This document shows positions 1,042 to 8,683 of a stretch of DNA of 10,345 nucleotides, piece by piece; within the stretch, counting starts at the first letter, position 1, and each line of letters opens with the position of its first letter. Below the pieces are notes generated by a model. The model made no database searches, had not been told where the DNA came from, and was given only the letters and a program-made list of their open reading frames with translations. This DNA is from a bacterium. GTDB lineage: Bacteria > T1Sed10-126. Location: assembly GCA_003557545.1 (NCBI GenBank), contig PWOD01000148.1, positions 1 to 10,345 on the forward strand, in the 5' to 3' direction. The position numbers were made by a program, and so were the translations under genes.

Positions 1042-1587
1042 ATAAGCCTTTGCTAAATTAGCTATTAGTATCTGATAAAAGTCCGAGCCTGCAATTTTTA
1101 TTTCCCACGCTCGAAAATAAAATTTCCTGATTCATCCCCGTGAAAGTTCCTAAATAATATGTCGTATATCAGGAATTTCTAATATGTTTCCATATGACAT
1201 TGCATTATTTTTTTCGAGAGTCCATGATTGAAAGTTGAAAGCAGGAAAAGTTTGAATGGAAAATTCTACTATAGCTTTAGGAAAGGGAATATTGTAAGAT
1301 CCTCGTTCCCCAAAATGTGCTTGGTAATTAAAAAAACGGGAGCCAGATAAAATCCTGATATTGTCCATCTATTTTTAGCTTTTGATCCTTGCCCATCGAT
1401 CGTAGTTCTGCGCCTCTCGTCTGCTGTATCTGAATCTCCCACTTTATCATCTCCTTCTTAAAAATATTTGGTAAAATGAGATATGCTTGTATTGCGGCCG
1501 GATAAGATAGATACAGTTATGCAACAATCGGGCTCGCCGCGCTGGTGGTTTATTTAAAATATGCAATCTTCAGTGGAGGTGACAGCC
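1042..1587. other. Intergenic region with no firm gene
   Basis: About 545 bases between the ankyrin frame and the ATPase start. On the minus strand three short overlapping frames occur (1450-1328, 1442-1269, 1368-1150), of which only the 1442 one has a well-placed ribosome binding site. No good terminator follows the ankyrin frame, and I could not find a convincing sigma70 promoter for the ATPase. The AT-rich composition and the lack of a dominant frame suggest decayed DNA. Confidence 0.5.
1269..1442 (-). CDS. Possible small protein of 57 aa, unknown
   Basis: GTG at 1442 follows AAGGAG with an 8-base spacer, the best ribosome binding site in this region. The frame encodes a charged N-terminal half (about residues 2-26, with TADERRRTTIDGQ) followed by a hydrophobic stretch near residues 30-40 (GFYLAPVFLIT), so a single membrane helix is possible. 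A competing frame begins at ATG 1450, which directly abuts the same AAGGAG and has a poor spacer; it encodes 40 aa. A third starts at 1368 immediately after a stop. I recognise none of them. The three-way ambiguity makes a decayed gene as likely as a real small protein. Confidence 0.22.
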   Translation of the reverse strand: MGDSDTADERRRTTIDGQGSKAKNRWTISGFYLAPVFLITKHILGNEDLTIFPFLKL

Positions 1588-4284
1588 ATGCTCGAAAACA
1601 GGACAGCAGAAAAATGGCATGCGCTTGCTGGCGAGCAAGCGCCGGAAAAATTGAAGAGCAGCAAAGACGGTTTGAGCTGGGAGGAGGCCGCTCGCCGGCT
1701 TGAAAAGATCGGCCCGAATAAACTTCCTGAGGCGGAAAAAGAGAGCATCCTCCTGCGCTTCCTATCCCATTTCAATGACATCCTTATCTATATTCTAATT
1801 ATTGCCGGTCTTGCCACCGCACTGATGGGCCACTGGATTGATACCTGGGTTATTCTCGCTGTTGTTATCATCAATGCTCTGATTGGGTTTGTCCAGGAGG
1901 AGAAAGCTGAAAAAGCCCTGGAAAGTATCAAACATATGTTATCACCCTCGGCGTTGGTTATTCGCGCCGGTCAAAAAGAAGAAATTGAAGCTCATAATCT
2001 CGTCCCCGGCGATATAGTAAGGCTCAGTTCTGGCGATAAAGTTCCCGCTGATATGCGTCTGCTCGAAACCCATAGTTTTCAGGTCGAGGAATCCTCGCTG
2101 ACCGGCGAGACCGAAACTGTAACCAAGCAGAGCGAAGCGGTAGATGAAAAATCTGCCCTCGCTGACCGTAAATCGATGCTTTATTCCGGCACCATAGTTC
2201 GCCACGGGACTGCGGTCGGTCTGGTTACCGCCACCGCCAGCGATTCTGAACTGGGAAAAATAAACAGGATGATTTCCGAAGCTGAAGAAATAACCACCCC
2301 GCTGATTAAAAAAATTAACAGTTTCGGCAAAGCGCTTTCGGCTGTGATTGTTGCCACCGCCGCTCTCTTTTTTCTGATCGGTTATTTCGGTCGCGGATTC
2401 GAAATGGGGGAGACGGTGATGATGGTGATCGGTATTGCTGTTGCTGCTATTCCCGAGGGTTTGCCGGCCATACTGACAATTACCCTGGCAATCGGTGTCC
2501 AGCGCATGGCCGCCCGTAACGCAATTATCAGGAAACTGCCCTCCGTGGAAACTCTCGGTTCGGTTACCGTAATCTGTTCCGATAAAACTGGCACCCTGAC
2601 GCGCAATGAAATGACTGCCGAGGCCGTTTATACCGCCGGGCAGGACTATCAGGTCGAGGGCGGCGGGTATGCTCCCCAGGGTGAAATAAAAAAAGCCGGG
2701 TCCGCAGTCGACCTTAATGAGGAGCCGCTATTAAATTACCTTTTGCACTCGAATCTGCTCTGTAACGATACTGAACTGAGTCAAGACGAAACCGGAAACT
2801 GGGAAATAAAAGGTTCACCAACCGAAGGCGCTCTGAAAGCACTGGCTCTTAAAGCCGGGCTGGCCCCCGAAGGAGCGCGGCGTCTCGAGGAGCTGCCTTT
2901 TGAATCAGAATACAAATACATGGCTGTTTTAAATGAGGTCCAGCTCGACGGGGAAGAGCCGGCCCGCTATATATTTGTAAACGGCGCCCCCGACCGCCTC
3001 CTGAATATGGCCTCCACTCAGTTGGGACCCGACGGGCCCCGGGATTTGGACAGGGATTACTGGGATGAAAAAATAGAACAATCCGCTGCCCGCGGTCACC
3101 GCGTCCTCGGTTCGGCGTTTTGTCGCGTTGATTCGGACAAAGATGATCTCAACCGCGCTGATCTCAAAGAGGGACTGCAGTTTTTAGGATTGGTTGGCAT
3201 TATGGATCCGCCCCGCCCGCAAGCCATAGAAGCGATCGCCGAGTGTAAAGAGGCGGGGATTAAGGTGAAGATGATCACCGGAGATCACGCGGCCACGGCT
3301 GCAACTATCGGGCGGGAAATAGGTATCAGCCAGCAAGTAAAAGTTATCACCGGGGAACAACTGGAAGAAATGGACGATGCCGGGTTGATCGAAGCTGTCC
3401 GCGATTATGATATTTTCGCTCGCACCAGTCCCGAACATAAACTGCGCCTCGTTAAAGCTCTGCAGGCTCAAGATGAAATTTGTGCCATGACCGGAGACGG
3501 AGTTAATGACGCCCCGGCCCTCAAACAGGCCGATATCGGAATTGCCATGGGAATCAAAGGCACGGAGGTAACGAAAGAATCGGCCGGTATGGTTCTGCTC
3601 GACGATAATTTTACCTCAATTGTTAATGCAGTCGAGGAGGGGAGGACTATCTTCGATAATATCCAGAAGACACTATTCTTCCTGCTGCCGACCAACGGGG
3701 CCGAGGCTTTGATGCTGATGATCGGTATCCTGCTGGGAACAGCCATGGTAATCACACCGGTTCAGATCCTCTGGGTAAACATGGTAACCGCCGTCACACT
3801 CGCGCTGGCCCTGTCCTTTGAACCGATGGAAAAAAACACGATGAAACTCCCGCCACGCGATCCCAAGCAATCTATCCTGAGCCGCCGCTTTGCCGGCCGC
3901 TTCACTTTTGTTTCAGTGCTTATCGGTGCTCTTTGTTTTCTAGTTTTTCTCTACCTGAGAGGTATAGGTTACGAACTCGAACTCGCCCGGACGATTACCG
4001 TCAACTGCCTGGTGTTCACCCAGCTGTTCTACCTCTTCAACAGCCGTAAAATCCATGAACCGGCCCTCGGCAAAGATTTCTTCGACAATCCAATAGTTTT
4101 TGCCGTCAGCGCAATACTGATAATTCTCCAGCTCGGTTTTACCTATATCCCCTTCATGAATACCCTTTTCGAGACCAGAGCAATGCCACCCACCTACTGG
4201 ATCTACCCCCTGGCCCTGGGCCTGTTGGTTTTCACCCTAATAGAAACAAAAAAATATATCTTCAAAGAAGAAGTAATCCTCTAA
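1588..4284 (+). CDS. P-type cation-transporting ATPase, Ca2+-ATPase-like P2 class
   Basis: Integral membrane pump using ATP, through an aspartyl-phosphate intermediate, to move a cation, most likely Ca2+ by family resemblance. Start: ATG 1588, five bases after GGAGGTGA (1575-1582); the ATG at 1561 has no such site. The product is 898 aa, normal for the class. Visible parts: cation-ATPase N domain (about 8-60), M1/M2 (about 64-102), actuator loop TGET (172-175), M4 with PEGLP (289-293, Glu290), phosphorylation site DKTGTLT (Asp332), nucleotide-binding motif GSPTEGAL, VNGAPDRLL in place of the usual KGAPE, TGDH (563-566), hinge TGDGVNDAPA (635-644), then six C-terminal helices. In M5, Asn703 and Glu706 match the SERCA Ca2+ ligands Asn768/Glu771. 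In M6, Asn731 and Thr734 match Asn796/Thr799, but the position of Asp800 is Ala735. The gene stands alone, without a visible regulator. Fold and class are certain; the ion is inferred. Confidence 0.95.
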   Translation: MLENRTAEKWHALAGEQAPEKLKSSKDGLSWEEAARRLEKIGPNKLPEAEKESILLRFLSHFNDILIYILIIAGLATALMGHWIDTWVILAVVIINALIGFVQEEKAEKALESIKHMLSPSALVIRAGQKEEIEAHNLVPGDIVRLSSGDKVPADMRLLETHSFQVEESSLTGETETVTKQSEAVDEKSALADRKSMLYSGTIVRHGTAVGLVTATASDSELGKINRMISEAEEITTPLIKKINSFGKALSAVIVATAALFFLIGYFGRGFEMGETVMMVIGIAVAAIPEGLPAILTITLAIGVQRMAARNAIIRKLPSVETLGSVTVICSDKTGTLTRNEMTAEAVYTAGQDYQVEGGGYAPQGEIKKAGSAVDLNEEPLLNYLLHSNLLCNDTELSQDETGNWEIKGSPTEGALKALALKAGLAPEGARRLEELPFESEYKYMAVLNEVQLDGEEPARYIFVNGAPDRLLNMASTQLGPDGPRDLDRDYWDEKIEQSAARGHRVLGSAFCRVDSDKDDLNRADLKEGLQFLGLVGIMDPPRPQAIEAIAECKEAGIKVKMITGDHAATAATIGREIGISQQVKVITGEQLEEMDDAGLIEAVRDYDIFARTSPEHKLRLVKALQAQDEICAMTGDGVNDAPALKQADIGIAMGIKGTEVTKESAGMVLLDDNFTSIVNAVEEGRTIFDNIQKTLFFLLPTNGAEALMLMIGILLGTAMVITPVQILWVNMVTAVTLALALSFEPMEKNTMKLPPRDPKQSILSRRFAGRFTFVSVLIGALCFLVFLYLRGIGYELELARTITVNCLVFTQLFYLFNSRKIHEPALGKDFFDNPIVFAVSAILIILQLGFTYIPFMNTLFETRAMPPTYWIYPLALGLLVFTLIETKKYIFKEEVIL

Positions 4285-4606: not shown

Positions 4607-4623
4607 ATTAGCAGGTGATAACA

Positions 4624-4842
4624 ATGGTAGAAACAGCAAAGAGAATCAATTTGTCCCTGTCGGAAGAAAAATATCAACTTCTCAAGGAGCTGGCTGAGGA
4701 AAAAGGCTGCTCGATGGCGGGATTGGTTGAAGACTTTATGGATGTTGGTCTGGAGTTATTTGAGGACATAGGTCTTTCTGAAATGGCCGAAAAACGGATA
4801 CAAGAGGACCCGGAGCAGTGGTTGAGTCTTGACGAGATATGA
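4624..4842 (+). CDS. Ribbon-helix-helix antitoxin of a RelE/ParE-type module
   Basis: A cytoplasmic DNA-binding antitoxin of 72 aa, expected to dimerise, bind its own promoter and neutralise the toxin encoded next. Start ATG 4624 is five bases after AGGTGA (4613-4618); the earlier GTG 4615 lies within that ribosome binding site and is unlikely. Residues 6-38 show the RHH pattern: beta strand KRINLSLSEE, helix KYQLLKELAEEKG, then CSMAGLVEDFM. The acidic C-terminal tail (about 45-72) is the usual toxin-wrapping region. Its last 14 bases overlap the toxin frame, giving translational coupling. The tail SEMAEKRIQEDPEQWLSLDE resembles tails I know from RelB/DUF6290-type antitoxins, from memory. Confidence 0.85.
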   Translation: MVETAKRINLSLSEEKYQLLKELAEEKGCSMAGLVEDFMDVGLELFEDIGLSEMAEKRIQEDPEQWLSLDEI

Positions 4843-5113
4843 AGTCAGGGTTCATTCCGGGGTAAAAAAGGACATTTCCCGGATCGACCCGCCGGTCTGG
4901 AAACGTATCAAAAAACAGATAAATCACCGCCTGACTGCAAAACCGGAATACTTCGGCAGCCCTCTGCGCGGCACATTAAAAGGGTTGTGGAAATTCAGGG
5001 TAGGGGACTACCGGGCGGTCTATAAGATAGACGAACAACAAAAGCAAATAAGCATCCTCCTGATAGCCCACCGAAAAGACCCCTACAGCAAAGTAACCCG
5101 CCGCCTCCAGTAA
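4829..5113 (+). CDS. RelE/ParE-superfamily toxin
   Basis: A 94-aa protein of the RelE/ParE fold. RelE members cleave mRNA in the ribosomal A site and ParE members inhibit gyrase; RelE-like action is favoured here by a basic active-site set: Lys51, Lys55, Arg57, Arg62, Arg82 and Tyr86, arranged as LKGLWKFRVGDYRAVY then AHRKDPY. These positions parallel the catalytic Lys, Arg and Tyr of E. coli RelE by pattern, not by structural alignment. The start is TTG 4829, inside the antitoxin's last codons. No ATG or GTG is available in frame that keeps the conserved first strand RYEVRVHSGVKKDI, so translation probably depends on coupling, which keeps toxin levels low. Length is normal and no residue of the core pattern is missing. 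The toxin call is confident; activity is inferred. Confidence 0.88.
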   Translation: MTRYEVRVHSGVKKDISRIDPPVWKRIKKQINHRLTAKPEYFGSPLRGTLKGLWKFRVGDYRAVYKIDEQQKQISILLIAHRKDPYSKVTRRLQ

Positions 5114-5278: not shown

Positions 5279-5331
5279 TTGTTTTTTCCGGTTATTTGTT
5301 TTATATTGTTTGTAGTTCGCAAACAGCGAAC
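5279..5331 (+). promoter_or_regulatory. Promoter plus palindromic operator of module 2
   Basis: TTGTTT (5279-5284), 17-base spacer, TATATT (5302-5307, five of six consensus). Just downstream, GTTCGC (5315-5320) and GCGAAC (5326-5331) form a perfect inverted repeat around AAACA, placed at the expected transcription start. Its location suggests repression by the DNA-binding protein encoded immediately after it; that is inferred. AAGGA at 5342-5346 is the ribosome binding site for ATG 5356. Confidence 0.55.
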
Positions 5332-5355: not shown

Positions 5356-5877
5356 ATGTTAAAACCACAGGATGTTGTTGTTTGTCTGAAGGTTCAAGTT
5401 TCAAAAAAACGTGGCTGGACCTATCGAAGTTTGGCCAAAGAACTGGATATGAGTCATTCTGAAGTTTATCAGGCTTTGCAGAGAGCAGCGTATGCCGGTA
5501 TTTACAGCAGTGAAAGTCGGGTAATACTGGCCGAACCTTTTTTGAAAATGCTCAGGGGATTACGATACATTTTCTATGCAAAACCTGGGCGACTGGTTCG
5601 GGGGATACCGACCGCGCATTCGGGTCCGCCGCTGAACAATGAAATCATGGCCGGGGATGAAGATGTATATGTCTGGGCTGATCCCGAAGGAGCTGTCCGC
5701 GGGCAGGAGATTAAACCATTATATTCTTCTGTACCCCGGGCGGTGAAAAACGAGCAGTGCCTCTATGAATGGTTAAATCTTGTTGAGGCTATTCGTGTCG
5801 GCCGCCCACGTGAGCAGAAACTCGCCATTGAAATATGTGAGAAGCGTTTTAAGACTGCTGAGATGCAAGGAAACTGA
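5356..5877 (+). CDS. Winged-helix-like regulator, putative antitoxin partner of the nucleotidyltransferase
   Basis: A 173-aa cytoplasmic protein. Residues 6-55 read as a helix-turn-helix: WTYRSLAKELDMSHSEVYQAL (21-41) is a typical HTH, followed by a wing-like region. The middle and C-terminal part is unusual and strongly patterned: RYIFYAKPGRLVRGIPTAH (70-88), PPL (91-93), VWADPEGAVRGQEIKPLY (106-123), then a helical LYEWLNLVEAIRVGRPRE (136-153). I recall this pattern from proteins encoded beside nucleotidyltransferases, but know no published function. It is not the AbiEi family seen at 7167. Its stop TGA shares one base with the next start, so the two are co-translated, and the palindrome before it suggests autoregulation. 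Best guess: DNA-binding antitoxin or co-regulator. HTH is confident; the antitoxin role is inferred from gene order. Confidence 0.75.
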   Translation: MLKPQDVVVCLKVQVSKKRGWTYRSLAKELDMSHSEVYQALQRAAYAGIYSSESRVILAEPFLKMLRGLRYIFYAKPGRLVRGIPTAHSGPPLNNEIMAGDEDVYVWADPEGAVRGQEIKPLYSSVPRAVKNEQCLYEWLNLVEAIRVGRPREQKLAIEICEKRFKTAEMQGN

Positions 5878-6551
5878 TGCACCCCTCCCTTGAGAAGCTT
5901 ATAAAAGCTCATCGAGTATTGAAAAAATTGGATCTAAAAGTCACATATGTGGGGGGAACTGTTATACCTTTTTATATGAAGGATACAGCCGCAGAAAAAC
6001 CGCGACCGACGCTGGATGTTGATACAGTTGTTAAAATAACAACTTACGAAGAATATGTCAGGATTGAGCAAAAATTACGTTTGATTGGTTTGCAACCATC
6101 CCTGGCCCCGGATGCTCCTGTTTGCCGCTGGAAGTATGATGATTTAGAAATAGACGTTATGCCAGCCCGAGGTGATTTTTTTGGATTTTCTAATCAGTGG
6201 TATGAGGAAGGTATTGCTCATGCCGTTAAAAAAGATCTTACTGAAAAACTGACTATTCAGGTGTTCAGCCCGGTCTATCTTTTTGCTGACAAAATTAATA
6301 CATTTCTTGATCGAGGAAGTGGAGATTACTACGCTAGTTATGATTTTGAGGATATTATCCGTCTTGTTGATGGTTATCCGGATCTTATTTCAGAAATAAA
6401 AAGTGCGCTTCCAGAGGTAAAAAAATATATTAAAAATTGGGTGGAAAATCTTCTGAATCAACCACGAGGTCGAGATTATCTGGCTGCTCATGTTATACAA
6501 CAGGGAAGAGCTGAGGTATTACAGAAACGTTTAAAGAAAATATTTGATTGA
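5877..6551 (+). CDS. Nucleotidyltransferase-fold protein, AbiEii-like putative toxin
   Basis: A 224-aa protein with the polymerase-beta-type nucleotidyltransferase core: VGG (25-27), then PTLDVD with Asp47 and Asp49 as the metal-binding pair, and a third carboxylate Asp93 in DDLEIDVMP (88-96). Further conserved-looking parts are GFSNQWYEEG (103-112), SPVYLFADKI (131-140, with Lys139) and SYDFEDII (154-161). Members of this fold transfer a nucleotide to RNA or protein; AbiEii and MenT, for instance, are toxins, MenT acting on tRNA ends. Substrate here is unknown. ATG 5877 overlaps the previous stop by one base and is served by AAGGA (5867-5871). It is shorter than the 306-aa AbiEii at 7763 and has different spacing, so it is a separate branch. 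Catalytic residues are all present, so the enzyme is probably active. Fold confident, toxin role inferred. Confidence 0.85.
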   Translation: MHPSLEKLIKAHRVLKKLDLKVTYVGGTVIPFYMKDTAAEKPRPTLDVDTVVKITTYEEYVRIEQKLRLIGLQPSLAPDAPVCRWKYDDLEIDVMPARGDFFGFSNQWYEEGIAHAVKKDLTEKLTIQVFSPVYLFADKINTFLDRGSGDYYASYDFEDIIRLVDGYPDLISEIKSALPEVKKYIKNWVENLLNQPRGRDYLAAHVIQQGRAEVLQKRLKKIFD

Positions 6552-7156: not shown

Positions 7157-7166
7157 GGTGATTTTC

Positions 7167-7766
7167 ATGGCTAAAGACAAAATGACGGCTATTCTGGAAC
7201 TTGCCGAAGCCAAGGGGATACTGCGTCCAAAGGATGTCCAGGAGGAAGGTCTGCCCCGGCAGTATGTGTATCGTCTGTATGAGCAGGGAAAACTCGATAA
7301 AATTAGCCGAGGTCTTTACAAGCTCCCCGAAAAGCAGTTTTCGATGAGCGATACACAGCTTGAAGCTTGTAAGAGAATAACGCACGGGGTGCTGTGTCTG
7401 AAAACGGCTCTTCGATTTCACGATATGACTACTCAGAACCCGCATAAGATCTGGATGGCCATTGATGTTAAGGCCTGGGAGCCGGAAGTGGACCTGCCGA
7501 TGAAATATATCAGGATGTCGGGCGAATCTTTCGAGAGTGGGATTGAAGAACACAAGGTTGATAAGATTCCGGTTCGGGTGTACAGTGCGGCTAAGACGGT
7601 GGCTGACTGTTTTAAATTTCGCAGTAAAATTGGACTTGAGGTCTGTCTGGATGCTCTGCGGGATTTTCGGTTCCAGAATATAGGAACTATGGACGATATC
7701 TGGAAATACGCAAAAATTAACCGGGTGCTGAATGTCATGCGCCCTTACATGGAAGCTCAAAGATGA
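7167..7766 (+). CDS. abiEi: AbiEi-type antitoxin and transcriptional repressor
   Basis: Antitoxin of a type IV abortive-infection module: in characterised systems AbiEi represses the operon with its N-terminal winged helix and counters AbiEii without stable complex formation. The 199-aa product has the family layout: winged helix at about 5-55 (ILELAEAKGILRPKDVQEEG, RQYVYRLYEQGKLDKISRGLY), then the all-alpha/beta C-terminal domain with GVLCLKTALRFHDM and the hallmark RVYSAAKTVADCFKFRSKIG. Start ATG 7167 is five bases after AAGGTGA; GTG 7158 lies within that site and is rejected. The final ATGA (7763-7766) overlaps the next gene by four bases, a standard coupling. Immediately upstream is the concentric palindrome. 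A 207-aa minus-strand open frame across it is a codon-bias shadow. Family assignment is firm. Confidence 0.93.
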   Translation: MAKDKMTAILELAEAKGILRPKDVQEEGLPRQYVYRLYEQGKLDKISRGLYKLPEKQFSMSDTQLEACKRITHGVLCLKTALRFHDMTTQNPHKIWMAIDVKAWEPEVDLPMKYIRMSGESFESGIEEHKVDKIPVRVYSAAKTVADCFKFRSKIGLEVCLDALRDFRFQNIGTMDDIWKYAKINRVLNVMRPYMEAQR

Positions 7767-8683
7767 GCCGGGCTGTCGACCTCGCCACGGTCCAGTCTAT
7801 CCGGGACCGGCTGAAAAATATAGCCCGTGCGAATGACGAGGATTTTAATCATGTTGTGGTCCGTTATGGTCTTGAAAGGATGTTGTACCGGTTATCGAAA
7901 TCTGAGCATAGTGATCAATTTGTGTTAAAAGGGGCCACGCTGTTTTTATACTGGCAGGGGGAACCACACCGACCCACAATTGATGCTGATTTTACGGCTA
8001 TCGCAGAAATGGGTATAGAGGAATTGGAAAAAATCGTTAAGAACCTATGCAACCTTGAGATTGATTCGGAAGACGGTGTGATTTTTCTTACTGAAACGAT
8101 AGAAGGTAAAAAAATTCGGGAGGGCAGGGCCTATGAGGGAATTCGGGTAAATCTGAAAGCTCTGCTCGGAACACAGGAGTTCGGAGTCCAATTGGACGTT
8201 GGCTTTGGGGACTCAATGGTTCCTGCTCCCGAAGAAATCGATTATCCTGTTCTGCTGGATTTTCCGTCCCCCCGGCTGAAGGCCTACCAGAAAGAGACCA
8301 TAATTTCTGAAAAGTTTCAGAACATGATTGAGATGGGCTTGGTTAACAGCCGTGTAAAGGATTTTTACGATATTTGGTTCCTTTGTAAAAACTTTGAATT
8401 CGATGGACTGGAACTCCAGGACGCATTTACGGGGACGTTTAAACGGAGAAAAACGGCGGTGCCCGAGGTTATCCCGCTATCCCTTACGGATGAAATGGAC
8501 CAGGACGAAGTTATGCGTACTCGCTGGACCGTGTTTCTTAATGATCTTGGTTTGAGAGGGGAAGACCTACCTTTAATTGATGTGATTAACCAGATACGAT
8601 CATTTGTAATGCCTGTTTCAAGGTCAATTCATAAAAAAGAAGAGTTCGATAAAATTTGGAAACCGGATAAAGGCTGGATTTAG
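7763..8683 (+). CDS. abiEii: AbiEii-type nucleotidyltransferase toxin
   Basis: Toxin of the type IV AbiE module, a nucleotidyltransferase-fold protein; characterised AbiEii binds GTP and arrests growth, limiting phage spread. The 306-aa protein carries: LKGATLFLYW (55-64) followed by RPTIDADF with Asp74 and Asp76; QLDVGFGD with Asp145 as likely third carboxylate; KETIISEKFQ (177-186, Lys184); and the family signature NSRVKDFYDIW (195-205). All motif residues I look for are present, so it is likely active. ATG 7763 overlaps the abiEi stop by four bases. The usual family signature at motif I often has G-S or G-G; here it is G-A (57-58), a mild variation. No terminator is clear after its TAG 8683. 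No membrane or export signal. Confidence 0.93.
   Translation: MSRAVDLATVQSIRDRLKNIARANDEDFNHVVVRYGLERMLYRLSKSEHSDQFVLKGATLFLYWQGEPHRPTIDADFTAIAEMGIEELEKIVKNLCNLEIDSEDGVIFLTETIEGKKIREGRAYEGIRVNLKALLGTQEFGVQLDVGFGDSMVPAPEEIDYPVLLDFPSPRLKAYQKETIISEKFQNMIEMGLVNSRVKDFYDIWFLCKNFEFDGLELQDAFTGTFKRRKTAVPEVIPLSLTDEMDQDEVMRTRWTVFLNDLGLRGEDLPLIDVINQIRSFVMPVSRSIHKKEEFDKIWKPDKGWI

Follow-up and report, generated by a model that had tools for sequence, protein, structure and literature searches.

A winged-helix protein and a MenT1-like nucleotidyltransferase form a conserved gene pair, probably an autoregulated toxin-antitoxin module

What is the role of a small gene pair that encodes a DNA-binding protein and a short nucleotidyltransferase, and is such a pair new? 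The question is raised by a locus in a stretch of 10,345 nucleotides, called the window here in its full length (assembly GCA_003557545.1, contig PWOD01000148.1), from a bacterium of the GTDB lineage T1Sed10-126. The first gene (5356-5877, + strand) encodes a winged helix-turn-helix (wHTH) protein of 173 residues, the HTH protein, and the second (5877-6551, + strand) a pol-beta-type nucleotidyltransferase (NTase) of 224 residues; both reading frames lie where the initial annotation had placed them, and they share one base, within TGATG, an overlap that supports co-transcription. The pair is one of three toxin-antitoxin (TA)-like modules within about 4 kb. Directly upstream is a ParDE-like pair consisting of an RHH antitoxin and a ParE-type toxin (4615-5113, + strand; RHH_5 7e-06, ParE_toxin 4e-10), and 0.6 kb downstream of the NTase gene follows a genuine AbiEi/AbiEii pair (7158-8683, + strand; PADLOC 3.6e-76 and 6.2e-95).

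The initial annotation had put the HTH/NTase pair forward as a candidate for an undescribed system, which it is not: the pair is already catalogued in PADLOC-DB as the unvalidated phage-defence candidate PDC-M21A/B. The HTH protein matches the A model (7.3e-43) and the NTase the B model (5.8e-51), both strongly, and the two genes are adjacent in the same order, while Pfam and NCBIfam return nothing significant for either protein. PDCs are computational, unvalidated candidates that were derived by guilt-by-embedding (PMC12988326). Our literature search, with bioRxiv preprints outside its scope, found neither a paper that names PDC-M21 nor a published function for it.

The two genes are tightly linked. 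A contig profile scan yielded at least 569 confirmed relatives of the NTase, and in all of the best 80 of these the HTH gene lies directly upstream on the same strand, as it also does in the plasmid loci; a start/stop overlap is typical, most often ATGA. Searching from the HTH side gave 18 strong matches in two phyla, and 17 of these adjoin an NTase gene that is either intact (14) or broken (3), the one locus with none (L105) having about 300 bp of contig remaining. Pairwise distances of the two proteins are correlated as well, with a Spearman coefficient of 0.49 against a permutation maximum of 0.10. The initial annotation had named, as observations that would refute such a pair, genes found mostly apart and a metabolic neighbourhood conserved across genomes; adjacency was found from both sides, and the neighbours vary, so that the genes form a real self-contained pair. 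Among 133 immediate neighbours the commonest Pfam families, phage integrase and metallophosphatase, occur three times at most, and with no recurrent neighbour family a metabolic operon is ruled out.

The pair also appears to have its own operator. A 17-bp palindrome with perfect 6-5-6 symmetry, GTTCGC-AAACA-GCGAAC (GTTCGCAAACAGCGAAC; 5315-5331), stands 24 bp ahead of the HTH start codon, and nothing else in the whole 2.15-Mb genome matches RTTCGC-N5-GCGAAY; no wider regulon is thus apparent, and a global regulator with a regulon is ruled out. Of 91 loci, some of them near-copies, 32 have the same motif in the region before the HTH gene, and it is found neither in 908 kb of flanking DNA nor in shuffled sequences, counts that refer to a motif picked after the palindromes had been seen. 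Of the 18 loci that were fetched later through the HTH search, 6 likewise have it in the expected position. The palindromes that precede the HTH gene exceed those of shuffled sequences in length, and a 6-N5-6 palindrome of any sequence occurs in 51% of upstream regions vs 7% elsewhere. The motif is carried by, among others, Cyanobacteriota, Acidobacteriota, Bacteroidota, Pseudomonadota, Deinococcota and Thermodesulfobacteriota, a recurrence across phyla that rules out a chance palindrome. Because of the counts upstream, in flanking DNA and in shuffles, we take the palindrome, judged by sequence, to belong to a family-wide operator well beyond chance, so that the operator-like element named in the initial annotation is real, unique in its genome and conserved among relatives. 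The exact RTTCGC operator is missing in two-thirds of loci, and a palindrome with this geometry is present in about half. Elusimicrobiota copies (L029, L030, L038, L044 and L050) carry a different palindrome, of the ATATTACATATTGCAATATGTAATAT type, upstream of the HTH gene, which suggests that the operator and the specificity of the wHTH have shifted in step from one lineage to another. The shared promoter that had also been proposed is not confirmed: a consensus scan of the locus for promoters and terminators gave none that was convincing, and the one candidate is a weak promoter-like element, TTGTTT-17-TATATT (5279-5307, + strand), which was picked out by eye and falls below the threshold of the scan.

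The NTase is, in our prediction, the toxin. The catalytic set and signatures on which the initial annotation relied (GG26-27, D47, D49, D93, GFSNQWY and DFEDII) are all present, and in an alignment of 72 sequences G26, R43, D47, D49, R84, D93, N106, W108 and Y109 are invariant, as are K139, R146, G147, S154, D156 and D159. The AbiEii/DUF1814 motifs I (hGG; G26-G27), II (RxxxDxD; R43-D47-D49), III (K-x6-R; K139-R146) and the DxxD of IV (D156-D159) are thus invariant or nearly so, with the K/R before DxxD missing in the window NTase (Y155). In AbiEii, mutations of G49, R63, D67, D69, K173, R180 and D192 abolish toxicity (PMC3985639); by motif and spacing these residues correspond to G26, R43, D47, D49, K139, R146 and D156/D159 of the NTase. 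The NTase thus resembles MenT/AbiEii proteins, and the best solved match of its AlphaFold model (pLDDT 95.7) is MenT1 (Z 14.4, rmsd 3.7, 173 residues), followed by a fungal NTase-like protein (Z 11.6), LnuA (10.4), MenT3 (10.0) and ANT(2'')-Ia (9.8). The family profile also finds MenT1 by sequence (E 0.0029), and the alignment sets MenT1 R-F-T39-R-D41-V-D on R43-P-T45-L-D47-V-D49, so that catalytic D41 and phospho-acceptor T39 align with D47 and T45; judged by motif, K139 and D156/D159 are the counterparts of K137 and D149/D152 in MenT1. MenT1 phosphorylated at T39 is inactive (PMC11375011), and within the NTase family the phospho-acceptor position holds Thr in 71 of 72 sequences and Ser in 1.

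We predict that the HTH protein is an autorepressor and antitoxin. Its AlphaFold model (pLDDT 96.5) consists of a wHTH at about residues 1-75, which in model comparison resembles the MarR/MepR type (Z 8.6 over 73 residues), and a C-terminal domain at 76-173. The C-domain is the more conserved part (49% vs 41% mean identity) and has nine invariant residues, G83, T86, W107, G112, G116, P121, R147, R152 and A157; the GRLVRGIPTAH and GAVRGQEIKPLY signatures listed in the initial annotation are both present in the protein. Foldseek searches (vs PDB, BFVD; VIA) gave no convincing solved-fold match for residues 76-173, the matches falling mainly on the wHTH part, and since the query was the full-length model this result is no proof of a new fold. 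Profile searches found no AbiEi/COG5340-type match in Pfam or PADLOC and no HEPN family match in Pfam. The view that the partner is distinct from AbiEi is borne out; the AbiEi of the window, encoded at 7167-7763, by contrast matches its own PADLOC model at 3.6e-76.

How, then, does the pair relate to known toxin systems? It shares several features with AbiE, a type IV TA system: a wHTH antitoxin-repressor with a second domain, a short gene overlap, an inverted-repeat operator, DUF1814-like motifs I-III and the DxxD of motif IV (PMC3985639). However, the HTH protein matches no AbiEi model, and the NTase, which is about 80 residues shorter than the true AbiEii of the window and lacks the K/R of motif IV, scores 13.4 bits against Pfam AbiEii, below the cut-off of 22.5. 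Of 72 NTase relatives, 35 do match Pfam AbiEii at E <= 0.01 (best 1.2e-07), and hhalign of the family against the window's single AbiEii sequence aligned just the RPTxDxD stretch. The operator differs too, being 6-N5-6 here vs the long repeats of abiE, and membership of AbiE is ruled out by the partner and by the Pfam cut-off. MenAT1 of M. tuberculosis (Rv0078B-Rv0078A) supplies the closest solved fold to the NTase, but its antitoxin MenA1, a helical protein of 68 residues, has no DNA-binding domain, and the system is without transcriptional autoregulation, whereas our pair has a 173-residue wHTH partner and an operator-like palindrome. The spacer between GG and DxD is 19 residues in the NTase vs 13 in MenT1, and this spacer and the FSNxWY motif (N106, W108 and Y109 invariant) set the family apart. 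MenAT3/TglT-TakA (Rv1045-Rv1044) likewise has an NTase toxin fold (Z about 10), and S78 of MenT3, the phosphorylated hydroxyl residue, is equivalent to T39 of MenT1 (PMC11375011); it differs in its COG5340 (AbiEi-like) antitoxin and larger toxin (about 290 residues). The partner here, a MarR/MepR-like wHTH joined to an unmatched C-domain, is thus of neither the MenA1 nor the COG5340 type, and the pair is best classed with PDC-M21, in a two-gene form, and neither with AbiE nor with MenAT systems.

The distribution of the pair is broad and patchy. Relatives are spread over about 12 phyla, mostly in environmental bacteria and metagenome-assembled genomes, and the NTase is found in 4 of 98 widely spaced genomes, with the window's genome included and one of the four being a weak match (E 3.5e-7) without an HTH partner. 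It occurs in 16 of 146 genomes in one phylum, where some copies are remnants, and in 6 of 198 in another, and it is absent from the one same-family genome that was examined. Relatives are carried by 115 plasmid records and also by 3 IMG/VR contigs, which indicates mobility. A phage gene is ruled out by the lack of any match in 50,697 phage records, of a PHROG for the NTase, and of more than these three IMG/VR contigs. In the NTase tree 12 named groups are intermixed, with copies from Synechococcus/Cyanobium and Burkholderiales forming one fully supported group; the window NTase is the most divergent (end branch 2.52) and has its catalytic residues intact. Decay runs in one direction: an intact HTH gene with a broken or missing NTase gene was seen at six loci (L023, L033, L104, L105, L107 and L108), and among the loci examined none had an intact NTase with a broken HTH gene, in counts that are small, with some cases possibly draft-assembly errors and L105 judged from its short contig. 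Such one-way decay agrees with a toxin role for the NTase and an antitoxin role for the HTH protein. At one of the six, L107 (the same place as L116, 1769-3067, genome G047), a TnpB-like reading frame lies inside the NTase gene, and the HTH gene is intact.

By computation, then, the pairing is obligate, the operator conserved, the predicted fold MenT1-like, the catalytic residues intact and the distribution mobile and patchy, and an obligate small two-gene unit with its own operator that is mobile and patchy matches what is generally expected of a TA module. We therefore consider it likely that the pair is an autoregulated TA module, whose toxin would be MenT/AbiEii-like and probably act on tRNA 3' ends, and whose antitoxin-repressor would be a wHTH protein distinct from AbiEi and MenA. 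We infer that the HTH protein uses its wHTH to bind GTTCGC-N5-GCGAAC and represses the two genes, whose translation would be coupled. Its C-domain would neutralise the NTase, by masking the active site or by bringing about phosphorylation of Thr45. Once the repressor or antitoxin has disappeared or been titrated away, as might happen when a phage infects the cell, the freed NTase, with D47, D49, D93, K139 and D156/D159 in its active site, would transfer NMPs to RNA and stop growth, the RNA target most likely being the tRNA 3' end, as for MenT toxins. Some observations count against a TA module: the divergence of the window NTase, the fold shared with some drug-modifying NTases, the absence of the exact RTTCGC operator from two-thirds of loci, and the lack of a significant Pfam AbiEii match for the NTase. 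So does the stronger conservation of the HTH protein relative to the NTase, since the antitoxin is the faster-evolving partner in many TA pairs. If the interpretation is correct, the family would represent a further, widespread class of MenT/AbiEii-like toxins (at least 569 relatives) with an operator conserved across phyla, and an antitoxin family unlike AbiEi or MenA.

The benefit that such a module brings to its host is a separate matter, and the explanation that survives best beside the TA module concerns exactly this and overlaps with it: the PDC-M21 pair would sense phage and the NTase would stop growth by abortive infection, with defence and not addiction as the selected function. We regard this as a serious possibility, if one to be held tentatively. 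AbiE, a similar two-gene NTase system, confers phage resistance (PMC3985639), both proteins match the PADLOC candidate, and the pair sits between the ParDE-like and AbiE pairs in the window. A few of the immediate neighbours in other genomes are also defence-related (type I RM, PsyrT, AbiEi, a DpdF-like helicase and PDC-S05/S13, in a plain tally with no background rate), but most are non-defence genes, the listing itself is unvalidated, and the third gene of the listed system is absent at the window locus.

This third member, M21C, is a PP2C-like phosphatase (PF13672), and an alignment of three copies shows that its catalytic Asp motifs are kept. Many plasmid copies of the pair from proteobacteria have it; it is an overlapping third gene in those of Providencia, Vibrio and Agrobacterium, and it overlaps the NTase gene in three proteobacterial plasmid loci (L010, 5645-6376; L012, 5620-6294; L014, 5686-6423); altogether 82 plasmid records hold a relative of M21C, mostly from Rhizobium, Bradyrhizobium, Agrobacterium and Pseudomonas. 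In the window no such reading frame follows position 6551, the next genes downstream being the AbiE pair, and M21C was found beside none of the 80 genomic relatives (best 80 of at least 569) by a model that was built from three sequences and may miss distant versions. M21C might serve to reset a toxin that has been phosphorylated. One could speculate further that the HTH C-domain, for which no solved relative was found, makes the toxin phosphorylate its own Thr45, a phosphate that would silence a MenT-like toxin, and that the PP2C enzyme re-arms the toxin in the three-gene relatives; with the phosphatase, a plain TA pair would then become a sensor that can be reset, and the two-gene form would lack the reset. 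We consider such a phospho-switch unlikely, and the phosphatase paired in some relatives would offer a way to test reversible control by auto-phosphorylation of an NTase toxin.

Two other explanations are less likely than the TA module. In HEPN/MNT modules the NTase modifies its partner (PMC7641770), and by analogy with MntA and HepT our NTase might be a neutralising or regulatory partner that nucleotidylates the HTH regulator, with no growth-arresting toxin involved. The higher conservation of the HTH C-domain would agree with such a role, but the partner is a wHTH and not a HEPN protein, the decay is opposite, with the NTase broken beside an intact HTH gene and never the reverse, and the operator is unique in its genome with no wider regulon apparent, so that we find this role improbable. 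Least probable of all, and very doubtful, is an NTase like LnuA or ANT(2'')-Ia that modifies a drug or metabolite under its own repressor, with the HTH protein sensing the compound and derepressing the enzyme: those structural matches, the MarR-like wHTH and the mobile, plasmid-borne setting would suit it, but MenT1 is clearly the better match, the DUF1814-type motifs III and IV and R-x-T-x-D-x-D are kept, the pairing is obligate and fixed over some 12 phyla, mostly in environmental bacteria and metagenome-assembled genomes, and there is no conserved biosynthetic or resistance neighbourhood.

Two further genes were noted to the left of the three TA-like modules. A P-type cation ATPase is encoded at 1561-4284, and before it, at the left end of the window, lies a gene (388-1041, + strand) for what is, judged by sequence, an ankyrin-repeat-like protein.
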